The notes below the pieces were generated by a model, which saw only the letters and a program-made list of their open reading frames with translations, was not told the DNA's origin and did not search any database. Both the position numbers and the translations under genes were made by a program. From Tritrichomonas foetus (Eukaryota > Parabasalia > Tritrichomonadida > Tritrichomonadidae), in assembly GCA_001839685.1 (NCBI GenBank), contig MLAK01000593.1:131299-195298 (forward strand): a stretch of DNA of 64,000 nucleotides, given 5' to 3'. This document shows, one piece after another, positions 14,300 to 52,968 of this stretch (position 1 is the stretch's first letter; each line of letters opens with the position of its first letter).

Positions 14300-16063
14300 T
14301 TATAAAGCATCAGGATCACAAAGTTTTTCTATTTCGCTATTACACATTTTTATTGTGTTCTCTTGTTCTTGTATTTCATTTCTTAATTCATCAACAACTT
14401 CATCCAGACATTCTTTTTCTTGAATCAAATTTGCGAGATCTTCAATAGATATGATATTATGATTTGTCATAAAGACTTTCATTTGATTGAATTCTTCAAG
14501 TTGTTGATTAATCATTTCATCAGGATTTGTAAAAATCTGCTTTTGGAAAATTTCATTAAATCGATTAATTTTTTGTGCATTTGTATTCAATATTTTCTGA
14601 ATGTCATTGAGTGATTTACTTGTTTGGTTTTGCAGTTGAGCCATTGCTTTCGATAAAGCTTTTTCTTTTTTAGATATTTCCGAATCGGATTTTATTTTCA
14701 TCTCCATATTAGCAACTTGACTCCTCAAACAACTATTTTCTTCTGTTAAATTTGAAATTGTATCATTTAATTCTTCTAATATATGGCTTAAATTTTTATT
14801 TGTGCTGTCTAAATCAACTATTTCAATTTCTTGCATTTCTATTGTTTCTTTTAATTCTTTAATAACAGATGAATCCGCTTGGCTTGATAAGATAATCGTC
14901 TCTTCTTCACGATTTGATAATTGTTCTTTTAATATTGATAATTCATGATTAAGTTTATGATTTTCTTTCATTAAATTTCGATTAGTATCATTTAGTTGAA
15001 GACTTTCTTGAATATATTTATCATTATCATCTTCAATGTCTTGCACTTTTTCTCTTAATTCATTGGCTTCTTGTTCGAGTTGTTGAAAATTTACCAAACT
15101 TTCTTTTAATTTTTTTATTTTTTTATGATAAGTATGTTTAATTTTAGTAATTTCTCTTTCATTTTTTTCTTTTTCAATTTGATTTTTTTCAATTTCATTT
15201 TGCAAATTGTCTTGAAGTTGAATTATTTTCCGATCTTTGTCTTCAGCAATCGAAATTAAATTTGTATGAAGATTTTTCGCTCGTTCTGGAGTATGAAAAA
15301 TTTCTTTCTGGCCTTTTAAGAAGAATCCATCGTCTTCTTCTTCACTTATTGCCCTTTTAGTGAAAGGTGAAATAGGAATAGTGCCTTCTTCTGTTTTTTC
15401 ATTCAAAGTTTCCATTTTTTTGAGTGATGAAATTTTATGGACAACTCGTTTGATTAATTTGGTGGTATCATTTGCATATTTGACATCGGAAATACAATTG
15501 TCAATAACATCTAGGATATGATTGTAATTTTCTGAAATAGATTTTGCAGATTCATCGTTTGGATCTTCAAATAAATTTTCAATATAATTTTTAAAGTCAT
15601 GAAAAGCGTTTTGTGCTTGAATAAGTCTATTTGTGTCTTGGCATTTCATAATTTTAGTGAAAGTCGAAATTTTTTCCCGAAATTCAAATACTTTTTCTTT
15701 ATTAATTTTCGGCGCTGATTTTTTACAAAAAGAGTCTAATGAATGTTTAGCATCCAATACACAAGGAAATTCAATCGAAAAATCTATGTCTGCTAATTTC
15801 ATTGACACTTCTTTGTAATTGTAAAAGTAGTGATATGAAAATGTGCGTTTTGAATCTGGTGTAATAATTATTTTGTTCAGTAAATCTAAAAAAGCGATTA
15901 GTCGGGTTCGTGTCGGATTGGAAATAGAATAGCGCTTGCAGTTAATAATTACTTTAATTTGCTTTTCGAGATTCAATAGAATGCTATTTACTTCCGTAAG
16001 AGCTGAGAGTTGACATTCCGATAGTTTATCATGTTCTTCGATACTTAGAAAATTTAAGTCCAT
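14300..16063 (-). CDS. Coiled-coil protein of unknown function
   Basis: 587 residues. The first 220 or so form a helical globular region without recognised motifs. After a low-complexity linker (about 225-255), residues about 270-580 are an almost continuous coiled coil rich in Glu, Lys, Gln, Leu and Asn, with heptads visible in stretches such as KKLKESLVNFQQLEQEANEL. There is no membrane segment or catalytic motif. Trichomonad genomes hold many such proteins, often cytoskeletal or centrosomal, but no specific role can be assigned. The ATG is at 16063; the upstream minus strand holds ATTTGACCAT 28 nt before it. Divergent from the membrane protein at 16357. Confidence 0.7.
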   Translation of the reverse strand: MDLNFLSIEEHDKLSECQLSALTEVNSILLNLEKQIKVIINCKRYSISNPTRTRLIAFLDLLNKIIITPDSKRTFSYHYFYNYKEVSMKLADIDFSIEFPCVLDAKHSLDSFCKKSAPKINKEKVFEFREKISTFTKIMKCQDTNRLIQAQNAFHDFKNYIENLFEDPNDESAKSISENYNHILDVIDNCISDVKYANDTTKLIKRVVHKISSLKKMETLNEKTEEGTIPISPFTKRAISEEEDDGFFLKGQKEIFHTPERAKNLHTNLISIAEDKDRKIIQLQDNLQNEIEKNQIEKEKNEREITKIKHTYHKKIKKLKESLVNFQQLEQEANELREKVQDIEDDNDKYIQESLQLNDTNRNLMKENHKLNHELSILKEQLSNREEETIILSSQADSSVIKELKETIEMQEIEIVDLDSTNKNLSHILEELNDTISNLTEENSCLRSQVANMEMKIKSDSEISKKEKALSKAMAQLQNQTSKSLNDIQKILNTNAQKINRFNEIFQKQIFTNPDEMINQQLEEFNQMKVFMTNHNIISIEDLANLIQEKECLDEVVDELRNEIQEQENTIKMCNSEIEKLCDPDAL

Positions 16064-16356
16064 AAAAGAAATTGGCCAAAAAAGCGCGTTATGGTCAAAT
16101 AAAAATGAACTTCCTCTTTCTCCAAAGTTTTCAAATTTCCTATCAGCTTGTTTAAGCTTATATTCATTTCTTCAATATCATAACAGACATTATTATTTAT
16201 TTTCCAATTCAAAACTATTTTTAAAATAATATATAAAAAGATATAACGGAAATAGAAAAATCAGATTGGTATTTGAAAGTTATCCCAATATAATGAAATG
16301 GTGAATAATTTCAAAGTCATGGTCAAAAATTGAATAATTATTTTTACAACTTTTCG

Positions 16357-19300
16357 ATGGAGCATGATGAAGAAGAGGATGTTCCATCGACAGTGATTTC
16401 GCTGGCCGATCTCCTCGAGAATTTAAAGTTAACTCGATCAAATAAAACAAACGTTCGCTTTCTCCAATTTGAATATTTTGATTGGATGCTCACTCGTACT
16501 CATCTGCCGTCGTGGCTAGATTTCATATCCTGGATGTTATATTTTATGATAATCGAAGTTATTTTGACAGCAACCTCAATTCAAGCTCATTTCTTTGGCA
16601 CATTAAATTCAACGAATTGGACAAAAGACACAAAATCGACTGATTTTCTATTTTCAAAAGTTACAATTCAACTTGCGACAATTATTCTTTTCACTTTTAC
16701 ATTATGCCTCATTATTTTTCAGAGACCCTTTGCATTTACGATTAATTTTAAAAATAGTAGCATGACTCATTTCAGAGCATCACTACTTCATTTTTCTTAC
16801 GTTCATATTCCAATTCTTTTATCACCGGTTTTCGGGATATTATTAGGCTCTCATATTTTGGCCAATGTTGGCTCAGAGACCGAGGATACTACGGCGACAT
16901 ACTATGCATTGCTTGCATGCACAACCTACATCTTACTTCTTTCCAGTGTTTCTGCCTTTGTTGCAGTAATTAATTCAAAGTTAACCATTACAAATACGCC
17001 TTTTGCATTTTGGAAATATCCATACAATTTTGTTGATTTATTATTTTTCTATTTAATTGGTGCATTTTTCCCTTTAAGAAGCTCTCCTGCTGAAAAAGTT
17101 GTCATTGCAATGATGATCATTCAGTTTTTTTATGGGATTTATTTCCTCATTCGAAGAAGAACTCCTGTCTTTTTATACTTAACACCAGCTGTCCTTGAAA
17201 TAAAGATGGGTGTTGACTATATTTTATTTAGTATTTTGACTATTACTAATATTTTATCATCTGTTAATTATCTATCTTATTTATCACTTGTTTGTACAGC
17301 CCATTTTGTGAGTATTATGATTACTACATTTTTAATATCCCGGAATCGCGTTCTTCGATCATTGATCTTAAAACATCATACTTATCAAATTGATCGAAAT
17401 TCAATCAGTTCTCCTTCAAATGCAGTCATTACACTTCGTTCTGGTATAACACTTTCGATTCCTTCTATTGCAGATCCAGCATTCATAAAATGGATTGCTT
17501 TATGTAGATATACACATGAACTTTTACCTGACTTGTTTAGGATTTGTTTGATTTCAAAGATACCTTTAAAAGAAGTTTTAATACCTCATACAGCAATTGG
17601 ACCTACTAATTTGATATCTCTTCAGTTTTTGGTGTTTCAAGCAAATTATTATTTGGAAATGATAAATGATGAATCACTTGTTTTACGGAATACCTATGAA
17701 AAACTGTTGAAAAAGACAGAAAAGATTGAAATTATGTTAAATAATTTTTGGACTACTGCTGATTATGATCAAACTACATTTTATAAATTAGGATGTAATA
17801 TATATGATGTCAAGAATGATTTTGAAGATGCAATTGTTTATTTTCCCTTATCAAAGGAAATTCATAACTTGTATAAAAATTTCCTCGCAAATATTCTAAA
17901 GACGCCCAGATTAATTGAATTTGATAAGAAGAATCCATATTATCATTTATCTAATCCAAAGTCAACTGTTTATGAATGTATAATAAATAAATCACATTCA
18001 CAAACAATCTTCGAATCACGACCGAAACCAACAACAAATGAAAAAATTGCACTGGATACAATTAAGAAAGGTACATTACCAATACTTAATTTCTTTAGAG
18101 TTATTGCACTTGTCTCTATTTTCAACTCTTTTGTATATTGGGGGCTGTATTATGATCATATTGGTAATACATGGAATTGCTATTCCAATGTTACTCAATT
18201 CCAACAAGCGAATGTTGCGCTTGCTACTTCTTTGCTATTACCAACAGATGAATTAATGACTTTTCCTGATGCTCAAAAGATTCAATTGATTATTGGGGTC
18301 CCACTAAATTTAGCTGCATTATTTCGGGCTCCGATGAGTTTCGATAATCCTTTTATTTCATTAATTAATGATATTGTGTATTATTTGCCGCCAAATTATC
18401 TATCATTCCGTATGAATGCTAATTGCTCGAAGATGTCATACTCGGCAACAACTGCATTTAATATTCGAAATGAATCAAGAATCGAAAAAAGACGGTGTTA
18501 TTTAATGAATGTATTGCGTTATATGGATTTACTTGAAAATTGTACTGCAGAGCAATTTGACATCTTCAAACGTTATGTAAATCATAGCTACAGTTTGGAA
18601 ACATATTTTCAAGTTTCTTATGCAGTTGTTGTCACTATTATATTCATTATTATTTTCACTTATATGCGTAAAAAGCACGATGAATTACTTTGTGCAGCTC
18701 GCTTGGTTCTTTCTGCTCAAGAAAATTACCATGAAAATGAATATCTTGAAATGCAATTTTGGGTTTGCCCAACTTTTACAATTTTCATTGTTTATGTTGC
18801 TTGTACTTTTGGACTGTTTCTTGCATTTATTTTCCCATTATATAAAAGTGATAAATTTGTTGAGACAATTATTAATGAAACTGTTGCAGCTACTCGAATA
18901 GCTCGTGGTATTCAAAATGGAATGACTTTAGCTGAATTCTCTATTAAAGATTCTGAATATCGTTCAGAGTATGAAAGAATAACAAAAAATATGTGTATTG
19001 ATGTATATGTGAATACTTTGGCATTAACGCACAATGATATTTCTAAAACGTTCTCTAAAATAGAGCCTTTTAATAATTGGTCACAGCCTTCTCGTACATC
19101 TTATAATACAGTATTACTTGATGTTTGTCGTTTTTTAATTCAAGGAAATCATAGTGAAGAATCCTTTGATTTTCTTGCTGCAAGAGCATATTTCATTTAT
19201 AATATAACATCTTTGCTCAGTTACACACTTCCTGAAATGAGACAATCTGCACATTATGCGATGCAGTTTGAGACATCATCATTTTGGTGGATTACAATTT

Positions 19301-27559: not shown

Positions 27560-29515
27560 TTAAAGATCATCATGTTCCATTGTGTTTTCGTCGTCTGTTG
27601 TTGAGTCAGCTTCTGGTGCGCCTTCTGGTCCTCCTTGTGCGCCGCTGCCAATGAGTGGTGTGAGGGCATCTTGGAGTTCCTTGAATTTGTCATCATAAAC
27701 TTCCTTTTCTTCTCTGGCGTGTTCGTCGAGCCATTTGAGGCCTTCTGTAACAATTTCTGTGATTTTCTCCTTGTCTTCGGCTGAGAAGCGTTCGCTTGTC
27801 TTTTCGTCGTCGAGTTGTCCCTTGACACCGAAAAGATAGTTTTCGACACGGTTCTTTGCGACGACAGCTTGGCGGACGCGCTCATCTTCATCTTTCATTT
27901 CTTCGGCCTTCCTGATAGCTTCTTCACGTTGAGCTTCAGAAAGACGTTGTTCTTGAGCGTTGATTGTGATTGATTCCTTAGCCTTTGTAGCCTTATCTTC
28001 GGCTGAAACGAAGAGCATACCATTAGAGTCGATTTCGAATGTAACTTCGATTTGTGGAACACCACGTGGGGCTGGTTTGATTCCCATAAGGTCGAATGAA
28101 CCGAGTAAGTGGTTATCCTTTGTCATTGGACGCTCACCTTCGAAAACTTGGATTTTAACTTGTTCTTGGTTATCTTGGTAAGTTGTGAAGATCTTGCTCT
28201 TTGATGTTGGAACGCGGGAGTTTCTTGGGATGAGGGCTGTCATGACACCACCGACTGTTTCGATACCGAGTGTGAGTGGGTTAACGTTGAGGAGGATGAC
28301 TTGGCCTGGATCTTCATCATCGGAAAGAACGGCGGCTTGGACGGCGGCTCCGTGAGCGACGGCTTCATCTGGGTTGATGTTCTTAGATGGTTCCTTTCCA
28401 TCGAAGAAGTCACGAACCATTTGCTGAACCTTTGGAATACGTGTTGAACCACCGACAAGAACGATATCATCGATTTCTGTCTTTGAAAGGCCTGAATCCT
28501 TGATAACGTTTTGAACTGGGATCATTGTCTTACGGAAGAGGTCAGAGTTGAGCTCTTCGAATCTGGCACGTGTGAGTGTTTCGACGAAATCATCACCATC
28601 GTTGAAGTTTTCAATTTCGATTGTGACTTGGTGAAGTGATGAAAGGGCGTGCTTGGCTTTTTCGGCTTCGCGCTTAAGCTTGGAAATGGCCTTACGGTTC
28701 TTGATTGGATCCTTTCCTGTCTTGCGTTGGTAAGCCTTACGGAGATATTCGATTGTACGATCGTCGAAATCTTCACCACCGAGGTGAGTATCACCGTTTG
28801 TGGCAAGAACTTCAAAGAGGCCATCTTCGACTGAAAGAACTGAAACATCAAATGTACCACCACCAAGGTCGAAAACTAAGATCTTCTTCGATCCCTTTTG
28901 GTTGAGTCCGTAGGCGAGGGAGGCGGCTGTTGGCTCGTTGAGGATACGAACGACGTTGAGGCCTGAGATTGTACCGGCATCGATTGTAGCCTTACGTTGG
29001 GCATCGTTGAAATATGCTGGAACTGTGATAACGGCGTTCTTGACTGGGCGGCCGAGGTAGTCTTCGGCGATCTGCTTCATCTTGGAAAGAACCATGGCTG
29101 AGATTTCTTCTGGAGAGAAAAGCTTCGATTCGCCTTTGAATTCAACTTGAACGTATGGACGGTTATCTTGGTTAACAACCTTATATGGAAGGCGTTTAAG
29201 TTCGTCCTGTAAATCTTTGTCGGAATAACGAAGACCCATTAAACGTTTGATGCCGAAAATTGTATTTGTTGGGTTGATTGTCATTTGATGCTTGGCTGCG
29301 TCACCAACGAGGCGCTCGCTTTCACCGAATGAAACAACTGATGGAGTAATACGTGAACCGGCTTCGTTAGCGATGATATCTACTTTTCCGTTTTGATAAA
29401 TGGCGACACAGGAATATGTGGTACCAAGATCGATACCGATAACTGTTCCCATCTTTTCTTGTTTGGGTTCCTCATCGTCACAGAGACAGAGGATGCTCAA
29501 GAAAAACAAAAACAT
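27560..29515 (-). CDS. BiP: ER Hsp70 chaperone, BiP/GRP78
   Basis: 651 residues. A short signal peptide ([12 protein letters not shown]) is followed by an acidic linker and a full Hsp70: [26 protein letters not shown] motif ([19 protein letters not shown]), [13 protein letters not shown] and [13 protein letters not shown]. The substrate domain (about 420-530) and helical lid are complete. The tail ends EHDDL, a likely HDEL-type ER retention signal, so this is the lumenal BiP, not cytosolic or mitochondrial/hydrogenosomal Hsp70. It folds secreted proteins with J-proteins and exchange factors. Codons are richer in G and C than in neighbours, as expected for high expression. A TCACT initiator is 11 nt before the ATG. 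Confidence 0.95.
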
Positions 29516-29523
29516 TTTTTAAG

Positions 29524-29528
29524 AGTGA
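29524..29528 (-). promoter_or_regulatory. Initiator (Inr) of BiP
   Basis: TCACT on the minus strand fits the trichomonad Inr. The A at 29526 would give an 11-nt leader, typical of trichomonad mRNAs. Confidence 0.6.
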
Positions 29529-30035
29529 TATGAACAATTTTGTCAGTTTGAATAGCGTGTAATTAACATCACTTCTGAAAATATATGGCCGGCCAAACCG
29601 TTTCCGAAAACGGGCAAATATCATATCAAAAAATAAAAGATTTCAATATATGAAGAACTTTTTGAAATAATACAGATATTTTTGAATAAATTGAGAGAGA
29701 TTTGATCTGAAAAAGTAAATCGATAAATATTCGTGACGATTCTCCCACGTGAAATTATATGTGAGCTAAAATAAAAATCAGAAAAATAAAGTATTCATTG
29801 TATTTAATTTTTATTATTAATTTTATTTATGAACACGAATTCCGAAGGAAATGACACATTTTTTTTTCGGATGGGTCATGTTTTGAGTCATCGTTGAGAG
29901 AAATTCTCTCAAAAAATGGAAAAGAATTAGTGTGGTTTATCTGGACAAAAAAATTTCGTTTTCGAATGAGTTAATATGAGAGAACCTTTATTTATAAACA
30001 AGTATTAATCAAACAAAAAAATATTATTCAACATT
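29529..30035. other. Upstream region of BiP, downstream of IFT144
   Basis: About 500 bases without coding character. A GC-richer block (TATATGGCCGGCCAAACCGT, about 29581-29600) stands out from the AT-rich surroundings and shares TATGGCC with other promoter regions in the window. Confidence 0.45.
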
Positions 30036-33000
30036 TTATTTCAATGCTGCATCTGGATTCACTATCAGCTCAGGATTGGGAACATCAGCATTACATAATG
30101 GACATACTTTTTCCTGTTGCATAGCTGCATATGAGCATGGGAATTTGCATGAAGGGCATTGGCACCAATCTTCGCGTGTCATGTGCATACCAGAAAATGA
30201 ATCAAATGGAAGATTTGATTTGCAATGTCCACAATATAATTCGGAAATTGCTAAGTCAAATCCGCAAACGGGACATTTTGCTTTTTCTTCATCTACTTCT
30301 GACATATCTTTTCTTCTTACTGTTGTTTGAATCTTTTTAAGAACATCTGGTTTAACTTTGCCTTCATATTCAGGTTGCAAAACTTTCGTTGCTATTTCAA
30401 ATGCGCTTTTCTTCATTCCAACTCTTGAACACTCAACTACACCCATAACTAGTAAGTTTGATGCATGTGCAGGGAATTTTGAAACATATTTGGATAATCT
30501 CTTTAATAAAAGAGCAGCAACAACTTTGTTCTTTTCACGTTGTGGCTTAATTAAAAGGTAGGAATGAACAATCATAAGTGCTTGTCTTGTTTCATTTGTG
30601 ACTGATACACTATGCTTCTCTAATTGACAAATTATATCGAATAAAAGATCGCGTGATGGTTTGTATTCACCCCGGAGTCTAAATTCATCAGCAATTTTTA
30701 GAGCCATAGCTGCTGCTTCATCAAATTGTTGCATAATGATGAACATACGAAGTAGGTATCTTAGATCGCGTGTTTTATCTTTCATATTTGCATTCAAGTA
30801 TTCAAGGAACTGATCACGAAGATTTCTATCTGGTACTTTCTCTGCTAGCTCAAGAGCAGCATCCATAGCCTGGTCTGAACCATCTGCCATGTAGCAATTC
30901 ATTGCTCGATGTGGATCACCAGCCATAGCAAAGAATTTGGCAGCTTGAATCATTTGTGATCGAGTACAGAAATATGTCGCGATTGCTTCGTATTGTTGTG
31001 GAGTTCCATTTTCACCAATAAGATCTGCCAGTTCATCCATTTTATCATGAAGTTCTGCAATTCGAAATGCATCTTCTGATTTTCCAGCACGGATCATAAA
31101 TTCAATCGCATATCGAAAGTTATTAAGTTGAATACAATGTTCAGCCACAAGTCTGCAAACTGAAACAAGTGGATGATCTCTGGCGACTGCCGTTGCTCGA
31201 TCTAAGTTGATCTTCAAAAGAACACGGACAAGTGACTCCCAATCACTTGCTCTCTCAAATGCAACAGTAGATGGTTCGAGTTGTCCAGCTCTTTCTAATT
31301 GGAGACCAATAGAACGAAGAACTTTTGTATCGGAAACTTTTGGTATTAAATCTGATGCTTGTTTCACTTCATTCGCACGAAGATGGCATTGTGCTGCAGA
31401 ATTGAACTCATTTACACGTGTATAAAGTTGTGCTGCTGGTCCAAATGCGCATAATCGTTCTAAGATTCTAGCGCATTCAAGAATAAGTTTAGTATCTCGT
31501 GTTTTCGCAAGTTGTTGCATACCTTGCTCAACTTTACCAGCTAAAATGAGACATCGAATGATGCCAGCACGTGATGAATGAGCTAATTCTTTGCATTTAA
31601 TAGCTTCTTTGTATTGCTTAAGAGCGGCAGAATAGTTACCAGTAAGTTCATTTTGTCGGGCAGAATCATGTGAAAGTTGTGGAATTCGTGATGGATCAAG
31701 ATTTTCGGCGAGTTTCAGTGCAAAATCGAATTGTAAAAGCGCAGCACGCATATCAAGTGCCATTTGTGGTCTTGTTGAATTAAGGAAGTTCTTTTGGGCT
31801 GCACCAAAATCGCGATCCATCATTGAAACATAACCGCGTAAAAATGAGTATTCTTCTTCATTCATCATTGGTTGTAAAATGTTGTGCATAGATGCATCTC
31901 CGCATTGTGCAAAAGCTTCTGATGCAATTTCAATGCAAAGGGATGATAATGCGCTTTCACCGACCATATGAATAAGCTTTTTATCACCCAGTTGAAGAGC
32001 AACTTGTAAAGCTCTACGATGACGATGAAGATCAAGTAGCTGTTTCACACATTCTTCTGAATTCTTATCAAGATCAACATGAGATGGCAATGTTTGTGTC
32101 TGTTCTGATGATTGTCCATCAAGATATATTAATGTACCATTTGCTAAGCCAAGAGCAGCTTTCATAGTATTAACATTTATTGTGCAAAGTTGTGTTAATT
32201 GAGGTCCCTTAACGTTTTGGTCTGTAAAATGATAAATTGTTGCACTCTTTGAACCAATTGCAGCAAAAACATTTCTATCCGTAATATCAAACAAAGCATG
32301 TGAGGCATCTGCCTTTTGACTTTCACCCTCACAAGATAGCGCAGTCATTTTGATTGGATTAAATAAGAAAATCTCACTATTAGAATCAATAAATACAAAT
32401 CTGGTTTCGCTTAAATTTGGTGTAATTGATGTAATAGGGCAAGGATGTTTATAACCCTCTAAGAATGCTTGATTGCGTGTATTAAACATTCTTATAGTTC
32501 CATCATCTGTTGCAAGTAGAAGAAGATAATCTGTAAGAGAAAATGCAGTAATTTTAATCTGTGTATCAAAATCAGGGAAAACAAAAGGTTTTTTGCTTTG
32601 ATCAAAGTAATTTAACATTACTTTGGATCCCATCAATACTGCAAACGCAGAATCACTAACTTGAATTGAATCAACTGATGAAGTAAATTCGACATTAGTT
32701 ATTAAACTACAATCTGAAGTATTATAAAACCAACTTTGGTTATTAAAAGCAACAGCCAATTTCGTTGGACAGATTCCAAGTCTTTGAGGTTGTGCTTCAA
32801 CTTGAACTTTCTTCATTTTCTTTTTATGCATATCATAAACTACAAGAGTTGTAAGAGATTCAGAAAATACAGAAATCGGTCCTCTCGAAGCTGTTAAAAT
32901 GGGTACTTCAACGAGATAAACTAAAACTGTTCCATTGCTTATACCAACAGCTCCAACTGTCCCATCTGGCGAAAGATAAACGCAATTCACTTCACCAGCT

Positions 33001-44423: not shown

Positions 44424-45029
44424 ATGTCTGGTGGATCACCCACACCAAAAAGGAGGAGACTTGTCTCACCAAAAAAGAAGACACCACGTAATACTTCAGC
44501 AGCTGCCGATGTTTCGACTCCTAGTTCATCAAGATCCGTAAATCGTTCTAATATAATACCCGTCGAGCTTACAAAGGAACAAAAAATCGAAATGGAAGAA
44601 GTTTTTAACATCTTTGATATTGATAAAAATGGATCCATCAACGGATACGAACTGAAAATCGCTTTAAGGGCACTTGGCTTCAATGCATCCAACGAAGAAT
44701 GCAATAACATCATGGCAAGGTATAACAAGAAGAAAGGGCATCCATTTGACGCCCTGAATCAAGAAGAATTTTTCTTAATCATCGGCGAGCAAATTGCGCT
44801 GAAGAATCCAGAAGATGAAATTAGAGAAGCGTTTGAGCTTTTTGATACCGAAGACAAAGGATCCATCACTGTTAAAAATCTGCAGAATGCTTTAGTCCAG
44901 CTCGAAAGAGGAAATGAAAAAACTGAAGAAGAGCTTCAAGCTGAGATCGCAAGATGGGACAAAGATGGTGATGGACAGCTGAACTACGAGGAATTCCGCG
45001 CAATTATGCTCAATCAAGAAGCAATTTGA
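44424..45029 (+). CDS. Centrin/caltractin
   Basis: 201 residues with a basic, Ser/Thr/Pro-rich N-terminal extension of about 50 residues, then four EF hands. EF1 (DIDKNGSINGYE) and EF4 (DKDGDGQLNYEE) have full calcium-binding loops. EF2 lacks the acidic ligands, and EF3 (DTEDKGSITVKN) ends in Asn in place of Glu. The lead-in ELTKEQKIEMEEVFNIF and KIALRALGF are centrin hallmarks that separate it from calmodulin. Centrins sit at basal bodies and at the contractile root fibres, consistent with the multi-flagellate cytoskeleton of trichomonads. The usual terminal KKTxLY-like tail is absent (it ends MLNQEAI). Confidence 0.85.
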   Translation: MSGGSPTPKRRRLVSPKKKTPRNTSAAADVSTPSSSRSVNRSNIIPVELTKEQKIEMEEVFNIFDIDKNGSINGYELKIALRALGFNASNEECNNIMARYNKKKGHPFDALNQEEFFLIIGEQIALKNPEDEIREAFELFDTEDKGSITVKNLQNALVQLERGNEKTEEELQAEIARWDKDGDGQLNYEEFRAIMLNQEAI

Positions 45030-45213
45030 AATATATTTTTTATTATTATTATAAAATATTTTGTGAATTTTGGACTTGGCGATAGTTGAAAACTTTATTT
45101 AATCAACAAGATTCACCAGGAATAAAATCTATTACTCCGACACTTGCTTTTGTTTTATTCGTCCAATGATAATCAAAGAAAAAAGTGCCATATTCAAAAA
45201 AAGATAAATCCAT
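45030..45213. other. Short spacer, no gene seen
   Basis: 3' flank of centrin up to the left inverted repeat. Nothing recognisable. Confidence 0.5.
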
Positions 45214-45241
45214 TCACTCGTACAACTTTTTCTCAAAATTC
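45214..45241 (+). repeat. Left 28-bp inverted repeat
   Basis: Begins TCACTCGTACAAC and ends CAAAATTC. All 28 bases match the inverse complement of 48371-48398. Confidence 0.9.
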
Positions 45242-45939
45242 GGTTTTTTAAAAAATGACTTTTCAGACCTGAGATTTTCCCAAATTGGGAGAATTTTGTG
45301 TGGAAATGTATATCCAGAGCCGCGAAACCCTATTGTAAAGAGAAAGTTTGGTATGAAAAAAATTATAATATGATTTGCGAGAATTTTTTTCTACTTAATA
45401 AAAACAGGGGGAATTTTGATATGTTGTGAGATTTTTGTTCTTATATATATTTCACGAAATAAAATCAATAAATCATAAATTGTCTGTAAATTTAATATAT
45501 ATTCGTTTTTTGGAATTGGCTTTTATATAGCTTTAAAATATTCGTATGCATTACCCATGAGTTACCAACAATATGGTCATCCTTTATTCGTATAAATTTA
45601 GAAATCATCAGAGACTCCCGTTCCAAAAACAAGTTTTTATTTTTCTATGAAAAATGTAAAATGAATTTGAGAGCATGATTATTTAAAAAATTGAAAGTGT
45701 TCACAATATTGAATACAATATCAAAAAACATGAAGTTGTTATTACTATTGTTGTGATATTATCGCTATGAGAGCATTATCTTTCTATATTTATGATGGTT
45801 TTCTTCGATATTTGGTGTCAATTTTTTTTTTTAAAAAAAAAAAAGAAAGAAAGAAAGAAAAAACGAAGAAAAAAGGTCAATTTTAAAATTAAATATTTTC
45901 TTTAAAAAAATCTTTGTGAGTTTCTTGCTGTATGTAATA
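45242..45939. other. Spacer with T11/A12 and GAAA repeats
   Basis: No supported gene. It holds a near-palindrome TCCCAAATTGGGA (about 45277-45289). A T-run followed by an A-run and four GAAA units (about 45822-45860) lies just past the transposase stop codon. Confidence 0.5.
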
Positions 45940-46740
45940 TTACAACACTGCATGTCTAAATATTTCTGTATAATCCCGATTGCTTGATTGGACAGCTTCA
46001 ATGACCAATTCTTTAAAAGAATTTGCATTTAAAGGTATATATTTTCCAGTTTCGATGACTTTTTGGTGATACAGTTGGGTGAATCTTTTTTGAATAATCG
46101 AAAACACTTCTTCAATCGGATCAAAAAAGCAAGTACTTGGAGCGGTATAAGATGGGAAAATGTTTTTTTGATTCATAGAATCTTTGATTTCTGGTAATAT
46201 TTGATGAAATTTGGCATTGTCAAGGATTAGAAAAGAATTCTGAGAATGTGTTGGAAGGGCTCCGACAAGTTTTTCAATAAACCCGTTAAATGAAATCGTG
46301 GTAAATGGCTCATTAGACAATGCAAAAAAAACTATTCCTTTATAAGTGATACAAGCAATTAAGTAAATAGGTTTGATGAATTTGAGGTTATGAACTGGCT
46401 TGTAAATAGCTCCTGTGAAGTTTTTGGGTACTATTGCAGAGTTGATACCAAGATTCCGGATATTGAATGGTTTTTCGTCAACTGAATAAGTATTTAAGTA
46501 ATTTATCTTGTAAAATATTCGATCAGCAAGCACTGATGGGATATTATCTAATCGACAATCCGCAGCTCCAGTTTTGATTGTGCGTTTTTTAGTTAATTTT
46601 CGCATATTTAAACGAAAATATTCATATGACAATTGTAAATTCGGATTTTGTTTTTTGAAATCTTCGTACATTATCGTTATGTTAAGATTTGGACGTACAG
46701 ATGCAAAATATTGCTTGATTCTTTTTTGGATTGCAGTCAT
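45940..46740 (-). CDS. DDE-superfamily transposase (IS630/Tc1/pogo-like)
   Basis: 266 residues from ATG 46740 (the frame opens at TTG 46785). The N-terminal 70 residues are a helix-turn-helix-like DNA-binding region (QKRIKQYFASVRPNLNITIM). The catalytic core shows the three acidic positions of the family: YSVDEKPFNIR (first Asp), FLILDNAKFHQILP (second Asp) and YTAPSTCFFDPIEEVFSIIQ (Glu after Pro-Ile, the S.xxNPIE box). The frame is complete, so the enzyme could be active or domesticated. Two Inr candidates lie 8 and 14 nt upstream. It is divergent from the gene at 46892, with about 150 bp between starts, and sits inside a pair of 28-bp inverted repeats. Confidence 0.85.
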   Translation of the reverse strand: MTAIQKRIKQYFASVRPNLNITIMYEDFKKQNPNLQLSYEYFRLNMRKLTKKRTIKTGAADCRLDNIPSVLADRIFYKINYLNTYSVDEKPFNIRNLGINSAIVPKNFTGAIYKPVHNLKFIKPIYLIACITYKGIVFFALSNEPFTTISFNGFIEKLVGALPTHSQNSFLILDNAKFHQILPEIKDSMNQKNIFPSYTAPSTCFFDPIEEVFSIIQKRFTQLYHQKVIETGKYIPLNANSFKELVIEAVQSSNRDYTEIFRHAVL

Positions 46741-46751
46741 TCTGATGTGAA

Positions 46752-46756
46752 AATGA
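46752..46756 (-). promoter_or_regulatory. Candidate Inr of the transposase gene
   Basis: TCATT, A at 46754, 14-nt leader. A nearer TCACA (46746-46750) gives 8 nt. Either is usable, so the gene looks transcribable in the host. Confidence 0.4.
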
Positions 46757-46879
46757 AATAAAAAATACCGCGAAAATTGAGACAAATTTGATTATCTTCT
46801 CGATTGTTTGAATGAATTGCCATATTGGTCGAAGAATTGAAAGATAAGCGCGCCATTTTTGAGTTAAACATTCATCAGG

Positions 46880-46884
46880 TCACT
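46880..46884 (+). promoter_or_regulatory. Inr of the 46892 gene
   Basis: TCACT, A at 46882, gives a 10-nt leader to ATG 46892. It overlaps a GGTCACTTT block. Confidence 0.5.
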
Positions 46885-46891
46885 TTACGAG

Positions 46892-47686
46892 ATGACACTC
46901 GAAAATTGGTTGAGTATCGATCCAGAAATCGTTGTCGATGTTCCTTCCTCCACTTCAGTGTACAACATCATTATTTCTACAGCTACAGTCCATAAATATA
47001 AACCACTCGAAAAAACTGTTTCATTGTCTTTGAAAAAATCGCAAGATGTGCAAATAGTGGCCAAATCTGAAGATCTACAAACATTGTCGACGTTTTATAA
47101 ATTCCTCAATACGGCGATGAACGAAATCTGTACTAATCGTTTTTTATTATGGCTGGTGACTGATGCTTGCAATGGTTTCATTGCATCATCAAGTCACCTT
47201 CATAACGCAGCGGTAGGTAATCAGCCGATCAAATTTATTCTTGGTTTAGTCCCCGAGAATGTGGTGAATAGACTCACAAAGCTCAAAAAAGGATCACGGC
47301 TGCCAGAAGAGCTACATAAATTATTTGGTGAAACACCTGATATTTCAGTAATAGGGAGCAGCACTCCTGCAGCTGTTTTGGAGACAAAGAAAATTGAAAA
47401 AATGAAAAGTAGAACAGAAATAATTGAAGCTACCAATCAGTTGGAGTTTTACCCAGCAGAATCAAAAAAAGAAGAAAAATCAAAACTTTTGAATAAAATA
47501 ATTAATATACAAGTATTCGCCGAATTCGCTGATATTCTGCTAGCAATTAATTCCACAATGTTTACCATGAAAAATCATCTTTACCCACGAGGTCGAATTC
47601 TTGACATCAATTACGACCTGATATTTGAAATAATTAATGAAATCATTATGGCGCACATTCCGAGTGAAGAAAATGATGAAGATTAA
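46892..47686 (+). CDS. Unknown protein, 264 residues
   Basis: I do not recognise the family. The N-terminal 140 residues mix beta-like and helical stretches (VYNIIISTATVHKYKPLEKT, FLLWLVTDACNGFIASSSHL). A Lys/Glu-rich linker follows (about 165-200), then a helical C-terminus ending in an acidic tail (IPSEENDED). No signal peptide, membrane span, zinc motif or catalytic signature. A good Inr and ATG suggest a real gene. It lies divergently beside the transposase, inside the 28-bp inverted repeats, so it may be an accessory gene of the element or a host gene enclosed by chance. Confidence 0.6.
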   Translation: MTLENWLSIDPEIVVDVPSSTSVYNIIISTATVHKYKPLEKTVSLSLKKSQDVQIVAKSEDLQTLSTFYKFLNTAMNEICTNRFLLWLVTDACNGFIASSSHLHNAAVGNQPIKFILGLVPENVVNRLTKLKKGSRLPEELHKLFGETPDISVIGSSTPAAVLETKKIEKMKSRTEIIEATNQLEFYPAESKKEEKSKLLNKIINIQVFAEFADILLAINSTMFTMKNHLYPRGRILDINYDLIFEIINEIIMAHIPSEENDED

Positions 47687-48370
47687 GTCAGTTACACAAA
47701 ATAGTTCCCGTAAACAATTTTTTCCAGTTTTGCGTTGTTGGCTTTTTGATATAACATAATATATTTATTATTTTTAAATTTTTCCTCGAGAAAACATAAA
47801 ATATATGTGTAACCAAGATTCAAAGATTAAAAGGGTCATGGAATTTCTTACGACTGATTACCATTTATCTTATAACTAATTCTTTCTGATCATTAATTTG
47901 TTATTTTGATTAAATTTTTCTGATATCTGATTCTTTTTTATATTTGATTCTTTGATGCAACAAAATAGTAATTGTGATTATACTTAAAATTATTTAACGA
48001 TACTTAGTTTTGCTTTTTAATAACCATTTCATTATCTGTTTACACAAATGAATAATATGGCATGATTTATTAATTAAAAACGGATTTTATTTCATGAATA
48101 TATTTTTGCATCTTGAAAAAAAATATTTTTCTTTGCCATGATTGATCTATTCGGGTTAAAATTCACTTTCAATTAATTTGGTGGAGTGAATATTCCTGTT
48201 TACATTTTAGGACAAATTAAATATTTGATAATTAATTTCGTTTTGGGTAATTGAAGTTTTATGATGGAGGATCAACTGTAATGAATTTTTCTCCCAGTTT
48301 GGACAAGAGAAACGGTCACGAAAACAATTGCTTGGTGTCGAGATAGAAAACGGTAAAATTTTTTTTGTGA
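47687..48370. other. Intergenic, no gene seen
   Basis: AT-rich, with frequent stops. A CCCAGTTTGGACAAGAG block (48293-48309) matches, inverted, part of the left end of the candidate element. Confidence 0.5.
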
Positions 48371-48398
48371 GAATTTTGAGAAAAAGTTGTACGAGTGA
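48371..48398 (-). repeat. Right 28-bp inverted repeat
   Basis: The plus strand ends GTTGTACGAGTGA. All 28 bases are the inverse complement of 45214-45241. Confidence 0.9.
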
Positions 48399-48784
48399 TT
48401 CAAAAACCTGATAAAATTAGTACGTTTTATTTCTAAAAAATTGTGTGGTTTTGAGATAATCCTGACCGTCGACCTCTTAATGAGTTGCTTTATGCACTAT
48501 ATATGATGCAAAAATCTAGAAGCAATTCATATATATCATAATCAAAACCAGTAAAAAAATATTTATTTAACGTTTTTGAGAAGTTTCTATAGATTCACCA
48601 ATTGAAATGGTTTTATTGAATATGGTTCATCAACACAAAAAGAAAACCATTCTTCACAAAAAAGTAGACCATTTTCAATACTATTTTTGAAAGAAGTAAA
48701 TAAATTCTATTCAAATTCACATGCATTCAAAAATCCGAAAAACTGTTTTCAATTCCAATTGAGAAGATAAAAAGTTTATCCCAA
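48399..48784. other. Upstream region of the CDF transporter gene
   Basis: No gene seen. The last 20 bases before the ATG (TTTATCCCAA) have no TCAYW Inr. Confidence 0.45.
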
Positions 48785-50116
48785 ATGTCTGAAACTTCTT
48801 CTTCTTCTTCTTCAAATCCTGGAGCTTGTTTCTCATGCTATATGTGCCATCAAGGCACTCGAAACCCCAACCAAATTCAGTTATGCGATAACTGTACATT
48901 GAAATTAAAACAACAGACTAACGCTGATAATTCTTATTCATCAATTGAACCCGAAAATTTCAAAAGACTTGTTCCGTCAACATCAATCGAAGAGATGTCG
49001 GTTGCTATTTCTCGATCTTCGTCCGATTTCAATGATTTCAATATCAAAAACAGACATCAAAAGCACGAGCTAAAAAATTATTACCATTCTGTAAATGAAT
49101 GGATCAACGTGATGGATGAACTCAATCAACCACCTGATTACGAAGATGATTTCGAAGATAAAAACGAAGCCAACTTTTGTATCAGATGTGCAACTTATTG
49201 CTCATTTGGTTTAAACTTAATGCTACTTGTTGGAAAAGCTCTCGCCATGTCAACATCAGCATCATACACAATTATGTCATCTCTCGCTGATTCCTGCTTA
49301 GATATTATTGCCGGCATTATTATTTCGTGCACGGCTGCAAACTCGAAAACTACAGACGAAGACCGTTTAAAATACCCGGTTGGCAAATCAAGAATTTCAA
49401 CTGTTGGAATTCTCGTTTTTTCGGTTTTAATGAGTTGTTGCGCAATTTTCATAATTCTACAATGCACACATTCACTTCTCAACCATGAAAATGCTCCACC
49501 TACAACTAGTACAGCGATGTTTATCATGGTTATGACGATTACTGTGAAATTCTGTATGTGGATCGTTTATAATTATTTAGGTCATCCAATTACTGTCACA
49601 CTTGCTGAAGACCATAGAAATGATGTTTTTACAAATTCGTTCGGACTGTTTATGTATTGGGGAGGTGGCCACTTCGCTTGGTGGATGGATTCAACTGGCG
49701 GTTTACTTTTGTCACTTTTTGTTTTGAACTCATGGGCACGAAATGCACTAGAAAATGCAACAATGCTTATTGGAATTATGGCACCACCTGATATCATAAG
49801 AAATGTTACTTATGTGTCTGCTCATCATCATCCACTCATCAAATCTGTTTCCAAAGTTGTTGCTTACCAAATTGGTCCAAGCTATTTCGCTGAAGTTCAT
49901 ATCGTGGTAGACAATAAAATAAATCCAGAGGCTGCTTTTTGGGTTGCTGATTCTTTGGCAAAACGACTCGAAAGAGTTGAAGACATTGAACACGCTTATG
50001 TTCACTTGGAGACAACAAATCATGATAGGAAGCTTCAAGATATGCTTTCGAGTTTCAACCCGACGCAGGATAAGTTGTTCAAGGCAGATTCGTTGAGTCC
50101 TTTGGCAGAATTATAA
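48785..50116 (+). CDS. Cation diffusion facilitator, probable Mn-type (MTP8-11-like)
   Basis: 443 residues. The N-terminus is Ser-rich with a small Cys cluster (CFSCYMCHQGTRN and LCDNC, about residues 15-38) that could form a zinc ribbon. The membrane part (about 130-345) has six spans. Span 2 holds DSCLD (in SLADSCLDIIAGI) and span 5 holds DHRND (in EDHRNDVFTNSFG). Both are DxxxD, the signature of the Mn-CDF group, while Zn-CDF proteins have HxxxD. The C-terminal cytoplasmic domain (about 350-443) has HHHP and EVHIVVD, the usual CDF dimer fold. Such carriers move Mn2+ (or Fe2+) out of the cytosol in exchange for protons. The N-terminal Cys cluster is not standard for the family. Confidence 0.88.
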   Translation: MSETSSSSSSNPGACFSCYMCHQGTRNPNQIQLCDNCTLKLKQQTNADNSYSSIEPENFKRLVPSTSIEEMSVAISRSSSDFNDFNIKNRHQKHELKNYYHSVNEWINVMDELNQPPDYEDDFEDKNEANFCIRCATYCSFGLNLMLLVGKALAMSTSASYTIMSSLADSCLDIIAGIIISCTAANSKTTDEDRLKYPVGKSRISTVGILVFSVLMSCCAIFIILQCTHSLLNHENAPPTTSTAMFIMVMTITVKFCMWIVYNYLGHPITVTLAEDHRNDVFTNSFGLFMYWGGGHFAWWMDSTGGLLLSLFVLNSWARNALENATMLIGIMAPPDIIRNVTYVSAHHHPLIKSVSKVVAYQIGPSYFAEVHIVVDNKINPEAAFWVADSLAKRLERVEDIEHAYVHLETTNHDRKLQDMLSSFNPTQDKLFKADSLSPLAEL

Positions 50117-50399: not shown

Positions 50400-51110
50400 T
50401 TAGAATATAGGATTATCGAGTGTTTCAAAAGGATCCCATTCTAAAATATGATCTAATTGATTAAGCATCCATTGTTCAGGCGGTAAAAACAAATCAATTT
50501 TCTGTTGTTTTAAGTTTCTATTCGGTTTATTTCCCATTTCTGCTTCGTTACTTTCATCAGAAAATAGGCTTAATGTATTTTGAAAATCTAAGGGCGATTG
50601 ACAAATTTCATCATCAAAATGACATTCGGTTTTATTGGTTCTTTTCAAATCAGTTTCTTCGTTATTCTTGATATCCAATTGTTCGATTTGAGTATGATTC
50701 ATTTGGTCAAAATGTTTTGTATTATTAAGTCTATCACTAGTCTGCTTTCTTGTCTGCATAACTGGTTTTTGCAGGGAATCTGTTGAGAGTTTGGCTAAAA
50801 ACTTATACCATCTATTTTTAACATTATTTCCACTACGTCCAACCAAAAACTTTGAGATAGATACCCAATGTGGCCCTAAATCATTATATTTTTGTAAAAT
50901 AATAGAATCTTCTTCTGGTGTGAAAGCGGATGTACTAATTTCTTTAAATAGGTAATTATTATATCGATCTCTACATTGTTGTGCTGATCTTCCAGGCATT
51001 TTTTTTGCAATTTCTACCCAGTTATGAATTCCTAATGTTTTGACAACATCTTTGAGCGTATCATCCTCTTCTTCTGTGAACCTTTTGCGAGCTGTATTTG
51101 GATCGCACAT
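50400..51110 (-). CDS. R2R3-type Myb DNA-binding protein
   Basis: 236 residues from ATG 51110 (the frame opens upstream at TTG 51164). Two Myb repeats sit at the N-terminus. R2 reads RFTEEEDDTLKDVVKTLGIH-NWVEIAKKMPGRSAQQCRDRY, and R3 reads AFTPEEDSIILQKYNDLGPHWVSISKFLVGRSGNNVKNRWYKFL. The tryptophans are conserved except the first of each repeat (Phe). The C-terminal half is disordered and charged. Trichomonads have hundreds of such two-repeat Myb proteins; some regulate iron-responsive and cell-cycle genes. The target is not known here. The gene converges with the CDF gene. Confidence 0.88.
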   Translation of the reverse strand: MCDPNTARKRFTEEEDDTLKDVVKTLGIHNWVEIAKKMPGRSAQQCRDRYNNYLFKEISTSAFTPEEDSIILQKYNDLGPHWVSISKFLVGRSGNNVKNRWYKFLAKLSTDSLQKPVMQTRKQTSDRLNNTKHFDQMNHTQIEQLDIKNNEETDLKRTNKTECHFDDEICQSPLDFQNTLSLFSDESNEAEMGNKPNRNLKQQKIDLFLPPEQWMLNQLDHILEWDPFETLDNPIF

Positions 51111-51955
51111 ATTTCTCGATATAAATAATAAATGAAGTGAAAAACAAAATGGTGGATTTATCAATTAACAATTATTTTGAAAGAAATTAAGAAGGTATAG
51201 GATAAAATATTCAATTTCACCTCAAAACTATTTTGACTGTATTGAATCAAAACTGACATATGACGAATTCCATACAGTCATTTGACAATGGTTTCATTTT
51301 TCCCACAATCGTGAGAAACCACACAATATTTCTTTATCGACTTTTTCACATAAAATCTAGATCGCCAGAAAATCCTTTCATTATCAAATTTATCCAATGT
51401 TTTGATTTGCCTTCATATTGAAGATGAACATTCCAATGGTTAGCTTTTCATTTTTCCTTATTCCTCAGTTAGTCATTTTGATAGAACCATTGTTTTCAAT
51501 TGTGTCATTTGCCAAATTGATGTTTTATCTTATTCATTTGGAATTTTCCTCAAGAAACAATTATGGTGATAAATGCTGAAGAACATAAATAGCTTCAAGC
51601 TTATCATATCCACTACAATAGAATGCATAACTTTCATAATTAAAAGAAAATTTGTTTCAAAAAACCAGAATATGTGAAAATGCTTATTTATCAGAAGTAA
51701 GTATCCAACATTCAAAACTATTTCGAGTTAGATCTATCAATTAAACAACTTTTTATTGTTATGATCAACTTACTTAATCTTTATTGTGCTAAATACAAAT
51801 CATTTTAACTCAACAAAAAGATGAAGATGCAAATCAAATCATTTGTTGAACAAAGATGTTGACGTAAAATCAAATAAAAACATAATCAATATATTTTGTA
51901 ATATTATAAATATTTACTTTAAAAAAGAAATGCAATATATTCGAATATAGATCTA
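51111..51955. other. Intergenic, no gene seen
   Basis: 845 bases of AT-rich sequence. The only long minus frame (51530-51715) has no coding features. Nothing recognised. Confidence 0.5.
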
Positions 51956-52690
51956 TTAAATATCATCTGTTGTGTTATCGACTTCAAAATATCTGTTACG
52001 ATAATCTACTTTGCAAACAAGGGCTGTCTGTGGCAGACAAAGTTTTCCTGATGGTATAATCATTAATTCATCTACCATCAAATTATCTGTTTCTGTTGGA
52101 AGATTCCTATTCTTCATTTCATTTAGAATGGCTGCACGATACAACAAAACAGAGTTTCTTCTATGCTCGAGTTGTTGTCTCATAAATTCCAATGAAATAA
52201 TGATTGGAATTTCAATTTCGTTTGCTTCTTTTTCAGGAATTTCATATTTCCTTGCATTTTCTTCTTGTATTTTATTCAAATCTTCACGGGAACGATTCCA
52301 TTTTAAGTTTACGAGCATTCCTGCTTTCATTTTATAATCTCCGTTTGCTTCGCCTTCGCGGAGGTTACAGTTTCCTTTTTGAATTTCAAAGGGGTCTGCT
52401 CGAATGCCCCCGTATTCGCTAAGGGCTTGCTTCTTTAAAATGCGACATAATGTTGTTCGTAAGGAGGCTCGCGTGCGCCAGGGCAAGTAAATAAGCATCT
52501 GGCTCCAGGCCTGAAGACCATATTTCATGCAGATTTTACGGAAAACAGCGAGTTCGGCTTGATCTTCTGGATGATTGAAAAGATAGACGAGTTGGCCTTT
52601 CGTTAAAGATGGATCAAGAATTTGAGACTTTGGAACTTCGGGCGTTTCTATGACATCGAACTGTGTGAAATCGGAATCTGAGGAAGACAT
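51956..52690 (-). CDS. Divergent single SANT/Myb-like protein
   Basis: 244 residues from ATG 52690 (the frame opens at TTG 52723). Residues about 35-95 look like one atypical Myb/SANT repeat: LAVFRKICMKYGLQAWSQML, then YLPWRTRASLRTTLCRILKK, with the pattern W...(L/M)PxRTxxxxRxxxxxxLKK typical of the recognition half. The tail is rich in acidic residues and ends in a beta-like CKVDYRNRYFEVD segment. In T. vaginalis a protein with one unusual Myb domain (M3BP) binds the M3 core promoter motif. Whether this is its counterpart cannot be settled by eye. Divergent from the two-exon gene. Confidence 0.6.
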   Translation of the reverse strand: MSSSDSDFTQFDVIETPEVPKSQILDPSLTKGQLVYLFNHPEDQAELAVFRKICMKYGLQAWSQMLIYLPWRTRASLRTTLCRILKKQALSEYGGIRADPFEIQKGNCNLREGEANGDYKMKAGMLVNLKWNRSREDLNKIQEENARKYEIPEKEANEIEIPIIISLEFMRQQLEHRRNSVLLYRAAILNEMKNRNLPTETDNLMVDELMIIPSGKLCLPQTALVCKVDYRNRYFEVDNTTDDI

Positions 52691-52968
52691 GAAATTGATA
52701 AACGAATCAAAAGGTGGGCTCAATCACAAGGTGAAATTTGTCGTGAAATTAGGTCAAATTTATATGATGTTCACTTTTTTTCGATGTGTTAACAGAATCT
52801 CAAACTTTTTCCATCATTAGAAATTTTCCTGCATTTATATGGCCGTTTATTCAGAATTCTGGACCATATAATCACGGAAAAAGTTAATGGTGAGAATTTA
52901 TACTTTGAAAAATTCACCAGGTTTGTTTGATAATCAACGAAATTAACTTGAATTTCTCGAATATTTTC
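52691..52968. promoter_or_regulatory. Divergent promoter region with TATATGGCCGTTTA and GACCATAT
   Basis: Between divergent starts. It holds AGGTCAAATT (52751-52760), TATATGGCCGTTTA (about 52836-52849) and GACCATATAA (about 52862-52871). The 14-mer TATATGGCCGTTTA recurs at about 57430 next to the MadBub start. Confidence 0.45.

Follow-up and report, generated by a model that had tools for sequence, protein, structure and literature searches.

A probable recently mobile IS630-Tc1-mariner transposon with an ANT target and a conserved companion gene in Tritrichomonas foetus

When two exact copies of one sequence face each other around a pair of divergent genes, the question arises whether the enclosed DNA moves as a unit and, if so, what its second gene contributes. 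We addressed this question for a 3,185-bp sequence in a 64,000-nucleotide (nt) stretch of DNA from Tritrichomonas foetus (a parasite of cattle), hereafter the window (contig MLAK01000593.1, here C203, forward positions 131,299 to 195,298, assembly GCA_001839685.1). The 28-nt inverted repeat at window positions 45214-45241 and 48371-48398 is exact, as originally predicted, and about 7e-7 such pairs would be expected by chance in 64 kb given independent bases of the window's composition. It encloses a DDE transposase gene of 266 amino acids (45940-46740, minus strand) and a companion gene of 264 amino acids (46892-47686, plus strand), and both predicted reading frames proved to be open and divergent. 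As detailed below, companion, transposase and terminal inverted repeats (TIRs) together constitute a two-gene TIR transposon, and we consider it likely that the window copy is an intact, recently mobile cut-and-paste element of the IS630-Tc1-mariner (ITm) group with an ANT target and a conserved companion gene. No evidence emerged that the two genes share a divergent promoter; within the 151-bp intergenic region (46741-46891) each gene has its own candidate initiator-like TCAYWW motif some 12-20 nt upstream of its ATG, with positions listed at 16 and 10 nt for the transposase and at 12 nt for the companion.

A search of the window's own genome, whose lists of matches are lower bounds throughout, revealed that the 3,185-bp sequence recurs elsewhere, whole or for the most part. 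The window's family, F1, includes six two-ended copies, one in the window, two on contig C581 and the others on C248, C109 and C996. It also includes one-ended pieces on C199, C675 and, as two left ends, C415, which extend to contig ends or lie close to them. In the F1 copies similarity ends at the repeat, and the flanking DNA is unrelated. Comparison with the window copy, excluding gaps and N, showed differences at 4/3185, 3/3159, 2/2862 and 0/3073 bases for four of the five others with two ends, and this near identity indicates that the family moved recently. The C996 copy has a 646-bp middle stretch with no match to the window copy, to which its 284/3066 apparent differences are ascribed, and this count was not used as a divergence. 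The matches listed include 16 perfect 28-mers, and every one of them belongs to a copy of the element: the six two-ended copies account for 12 and the one-ended pieces for four. An exact TIR pattern search of the genome returned 45 places against none for the reversed control, while an F1 TIR search allowing three mismatches returned 26 against eight. Short derivatives in large numbers were not seen in the TIR match lists. A 104-bp miniature derivative of a related family lies on C21 (116168-116271) with two related TIRs and AAT/AAT flanks; decayed or partial transposase relatives occur on C851, C580, C164, C603, C772 and other contigs, and a companion fragment on C189. The two left ends on C415 (59755-61225) lie near the contig end and point the same way; they are separated by 474 bp and preceded by unlike sequences, which may reflect either a second nearby insertion or an assembly join.

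Searching the genome with each protein uncovered a second, diverged family, F2, in which the gene pair is present in 12 copies with the same layout as in F1. The proteins of the two families are 38% (transposase) and 35% (companion) identical, and the TIR of F2 is related to that of F1 (TCACGCRATCCACTTTTTCCCAAAAY versus TCACTCGTACAACTTTTTCTCAAAATT). Two ends are present in 7/12 F2 copies, which measure 2,905-3,166 bp including gaps. Ten of the 12 differ by at most one base over 2,647 bp; C559 and C455 were omitted from this comparison, and on C455 the companion runs into N and is incomplete as read. Between F1 and F2 similarity at the DNA level is almost gone, yet both genes retain conservation at second codon positions, nonsynonymous divergence (dN) is 0.59 and 0.64 for the two genes, and synonymous divergence (dS) was not computable, which we read as saturation. 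Moreover, at least 18 near-full-length companion genes in this genome each adjoin a transposase of this type. The common layout in two families diverged to 35-38% means that the companion travels with the transposase, and together with the conservation at the amino-acid level it shows that the companion belongs to the conserved make-up of the element and is not cargo picked up by chance. The original prediction of a transposable element of two divergent genes between TIRs is thus upheld by five further two-ended copies in unrelated flanks and by a second family. The same cannot be said of an imperfect match that it placed inside each end: this 14-mer with one mismatch, CCAAAYTGGGAGAA, scored 23, which is not significant given that 200 shuffled sequences averaged 17.5 and reached 27, and it has no counterpart in F2.

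The lack of a clear target-site duplication had been regarded as a weakness of the prediction, but a duplication appears once the outermost T/A is assigned to the target. The second base outward from the 28-mer is T at 34/34 ends, and moving the boundary by one base places ANT on both sides. The element proper therefore spans 45215-48397 (CAC...GTG) between 27-bp TIRs at 45215-45241 (plus strand) and 48371-48397 (minus strand), which repeat each other exactly and recur in other copies; the 28-mer is the TIR plus one base of duplicated target, and the window copy is flanked by ATT at 45212-45214 and at 48398-48400. Triplets were compared at two-ended copies only (six of F1 and 7/12 of F2); this leaves out five F2 copies with one or both ends missing (C434, C559, C571, C774 and C110) and, for F1, the one-ended pieces (C415, C199 and C675). 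Identical ANT triplets were found at 11/13 copies (chance p=0.007), namely ATT, AAT, AAT and AAT in F1 and ATT, AAT, AAT, AAT, AAT, ATT and ACT in F2. The two exceptions are the two C581 copies (15871-19055 and 28096-31274), which are separated by 9 kb and inverted relative to each other. With their inner flanks swapped, each copy reads ATT/ATT, and after this one post hoc inversion the count becomes 13/13 (p=1e-4); in hindsight, the mismatch may be explained by an inverting recombination between the two copies or by a misassembly of the same form. Thus, the duplication is a 3-bp ANT instead of the 2-bp TA of Tc1/mariner proper. Aligning the copies, as the prediction had proposed, yielded the ends and the ANT duplication but no empty site, since 11 joined flank pairs searched in the same genome returned only their own halves.

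What, then, might the companion do? In protein searches it matches the hypothetical protein TRFO_08040. No Pfam match exceeds the cut-off (best HSDR_N, E 0.029), NCBIfam gives none, protein searches found no relatives outside T. foetus, and its predicted structure gave no usable fold. Given that it is conserved, where it lies and how small the DNA-binding part of the transposase is, we infer that its likeliest role, at about an even chance, is that of a transposition partner binding the transposase or the ends; judging by the predicted model, it may offset the small DNA-binding part. In such a scheme, the DD35E transposase would bind the 27-bp ends and excise the element, which would be joined to the target at ANT through cuts staggered by 3 bp, repair of the gaps would leave ANT on both flanks, and the divergently transcribed companion would act as a partner in this cut-and-paste reaction. 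Alternatively, and with a somewhat smaller yet substantial probability, the companion may be a passenger, or a host-interaction gene that serves its own ends, such as an anti-silencing factor or an element repressor, with no role in cut-and-paste. The want of a recognizable domain, of outside relatives and of a fold would fit this alternative, as would the finding that the companion is unbroken in 6/6 two-ended F1 copies versus 2/6 for the transposase, a difference that comes partly from assembly gaps (in the second C581 copy the transposase enters a 317-base N gap). However, two families diverged to 35-38% have both kept the companion at the same place and in the same orientation, which argues that it was retained through the history of the transposase.

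The transposase itself matches Pfam DDE_3 over the cut-off (E=1.5e-9) and the NCBIfam IS630 model below its cut-off (E=2e-9). DDE_3 is over the cut-off for the transposases of both F1 and F2 and below it for two further proteins, P0003 and the truncated P0004, while the IS630 model gives E values of 2e-9 to 4e-10 for three proteins, all below its cut-off. P0003 is a transposase of 266 amino acids, 52% identical to that of the window; as nothing in this genome matches it more closely, this transposase type probably occurs in another organism too. The predicted catalytic residues are D88, D174 and E210, in the motifs YS[VI]DE, DNA.FH and DPIEE, of which D88 and D174 are present in 4/4 aligned sequences and E210 in 3/4, P0004 being truncated there. 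Counting 35 residues between D174 and E210 gives a DD35E spacing. By this DDE_3/IS630-type catalytic domain, the transposase falls within the ITm group. In a weak structural model, the N-terminus is predicted to form three helices, one unit of helix-turn-helix size, and the alignment with Mos1 starts only at residue 70. Another DDE_3 family is present in the genome in frames of 708-747 codons, with nine matches over the cut-off (C21, C71, C169, C202, C281, C340, C627, C849 and C826); the same search gave 30 matches below the cut-off, 25/30 of them in 446-codon frames.

A 3-bp duplication could also suggest that the element belongs to the Zator/ISAzo13 lineage and not to a branch like Tc1 or the telomere-bearing elements (TBEs) of ciliates, for both Zator and ISAzo13 are reported to make one (PMC10045372). 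We regard this as quite improbable, since the profile matches of both families point to DDE_3 and IS630, with no ISAzo13-type model in Pfam or NCBIfam at E up to 10, an absence that does not by itself exclude membership. The best fold matches of the transposase model, Sleeping Beauty and Mos1, likewise weigh against Zator/ISAzo13, with retroviral integrases tied with Mos1. Finally, the idea that segmental duplication or repeats in the assembly, flanked by a chance inverted repeat, and not transposition, gave rise to the copies can be dismissed as vanishingly improbable, because, in spite of assembly gaps in several copies and an inverted C581 pair that could be a misassembly, the copies of both families end at the TIR in unrelated flanks and 11/13 two-ended copies carry their own duplicated ANT.

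At this locus the neighbours of the element are an EF-hand gene, centrin-like in look (44424-45029), and a cation-efflux gene (48785-50116). Further along the window lies an open reading frame (ORF) of 255 amino acids (51956-52723) with no Pfam match at E 0.001, close to a Myb gene (50400-51164).

How do these elements compare with known systems? Tc1 termini are CA, and the Tec elements of Euplotes duplicate TA. ITm transposons generally duplicate TA (PMC10045372, PMC8533490), with exceptions such as Fot (TAA/TAAA), Sailor (TATA) and Zator (3 bp) (PMC7386202, PMC8533490, PMC10045372). Like the elements described here, pogo/Fot and Sailor are ITm members with duplications other than TA; however, their duplications extend TA, whereas ANT need not contain TA, and their catalytic spacings are DD29-56D and DD78-111E (PMC7386202, PMC8533490). 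Tc1/mariner elements proper, such as Tvmar1 in Trichomonas vaginalis (PMC4021607), share the DDE-type transposase between short TIRs and the cut-and-paste anatomy, but the present elements differ from them in targeting ANT, with 3 bp duplicated, and not TA, and in having two genes and a shorter DNA-binding region. Tec is a ciliate element of Tc1/mariner type with three ORFs, one of them in the complement, but its TIRs are about 700 bp long and it carries a site-specific recombinase gene (PMC7325037).

By anatomy, the closest analogue is the TBE of the ciliate Oxytricha and its relatives. TBEs have an ITm-type transposase, duplicate ANT (PMC4724952) and, in the Oxytricha families, have termini beginning with CA (PMC4724952, PMC12242761), as here; in addition, they encode a 42-kDa transposase, a reverse-oriented 22-kDa ORF of unknown function and a 57-kDa zinc finger/kinase ORF (PMC4724952, PMC12242761), so that both systems place an ORF of unknown function in reverse to the transposase, with an orientation consistent between families. 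In contrast to TBE TIRs, which start with a CA4C4 repeat (PMC4724952), those of F1 and F2 lack a telomeric repeat, and TIR length is 27 bp here instead of 78-138 bp. No third ORF is present: F1 and all four of the F2 copies inspected have two ORFs of at least 100 amino acids; the transposase is smaller (266 amino acids), and the host is a parabasalid. The catalytic spacing of TBEs is given as DD34E (PMC7325037) against the DD35E counted here, but published counts may follow another convention. Since the ANT duplication, the CA termini and the reverse-oriented ORF are common to both, and the telomeric TIRs and the third ORF are lacking, we file the Tritrichomonas elements as ITm elements working like TBEs and not as TBEs.

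The suggestion that the element is undescribed holds in one sense only. The open-licence literature searched, in the parts available, contained no description of these elements in T. foetus, and the genome paper, in its available text, reports about 30% DNA transposons without such element detail (PMC11415386); as a new kind the element does not stand, because ciliate TBEs share its ANT duplication and reverse-oriented companion gene. It is conceivable, if rather doubtful, that the Tritrichomonas and TBE elements are two surviving branches of an ancient, ANT-inserting, multi-gene ITm lineage with an obligate reverse-oriented partner, represented by the companion and by the TBE 22-kDa protein; among the protein searches with transposase and companion, no match was named as ciliate. 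If true, the shared ANT lineage would be older than the role of TBE transposases in rearranging ciliate genomes. While ITm elements typically consist of a transposase only and target TA, two diverged parabasalid families use ANT and keep a second gene. For TBEs, genetic approaches are reported to have been precluded by the more than 34,000 paralogues of the transposase, and accessory proteins tested in E. coli left DNA binding unaltered (PMC12242761). The low-copy, near-identical elements of T. foetus offer a simpler setting for studying both the function of the companion and the change from a 2-bp to a 3-bp target.
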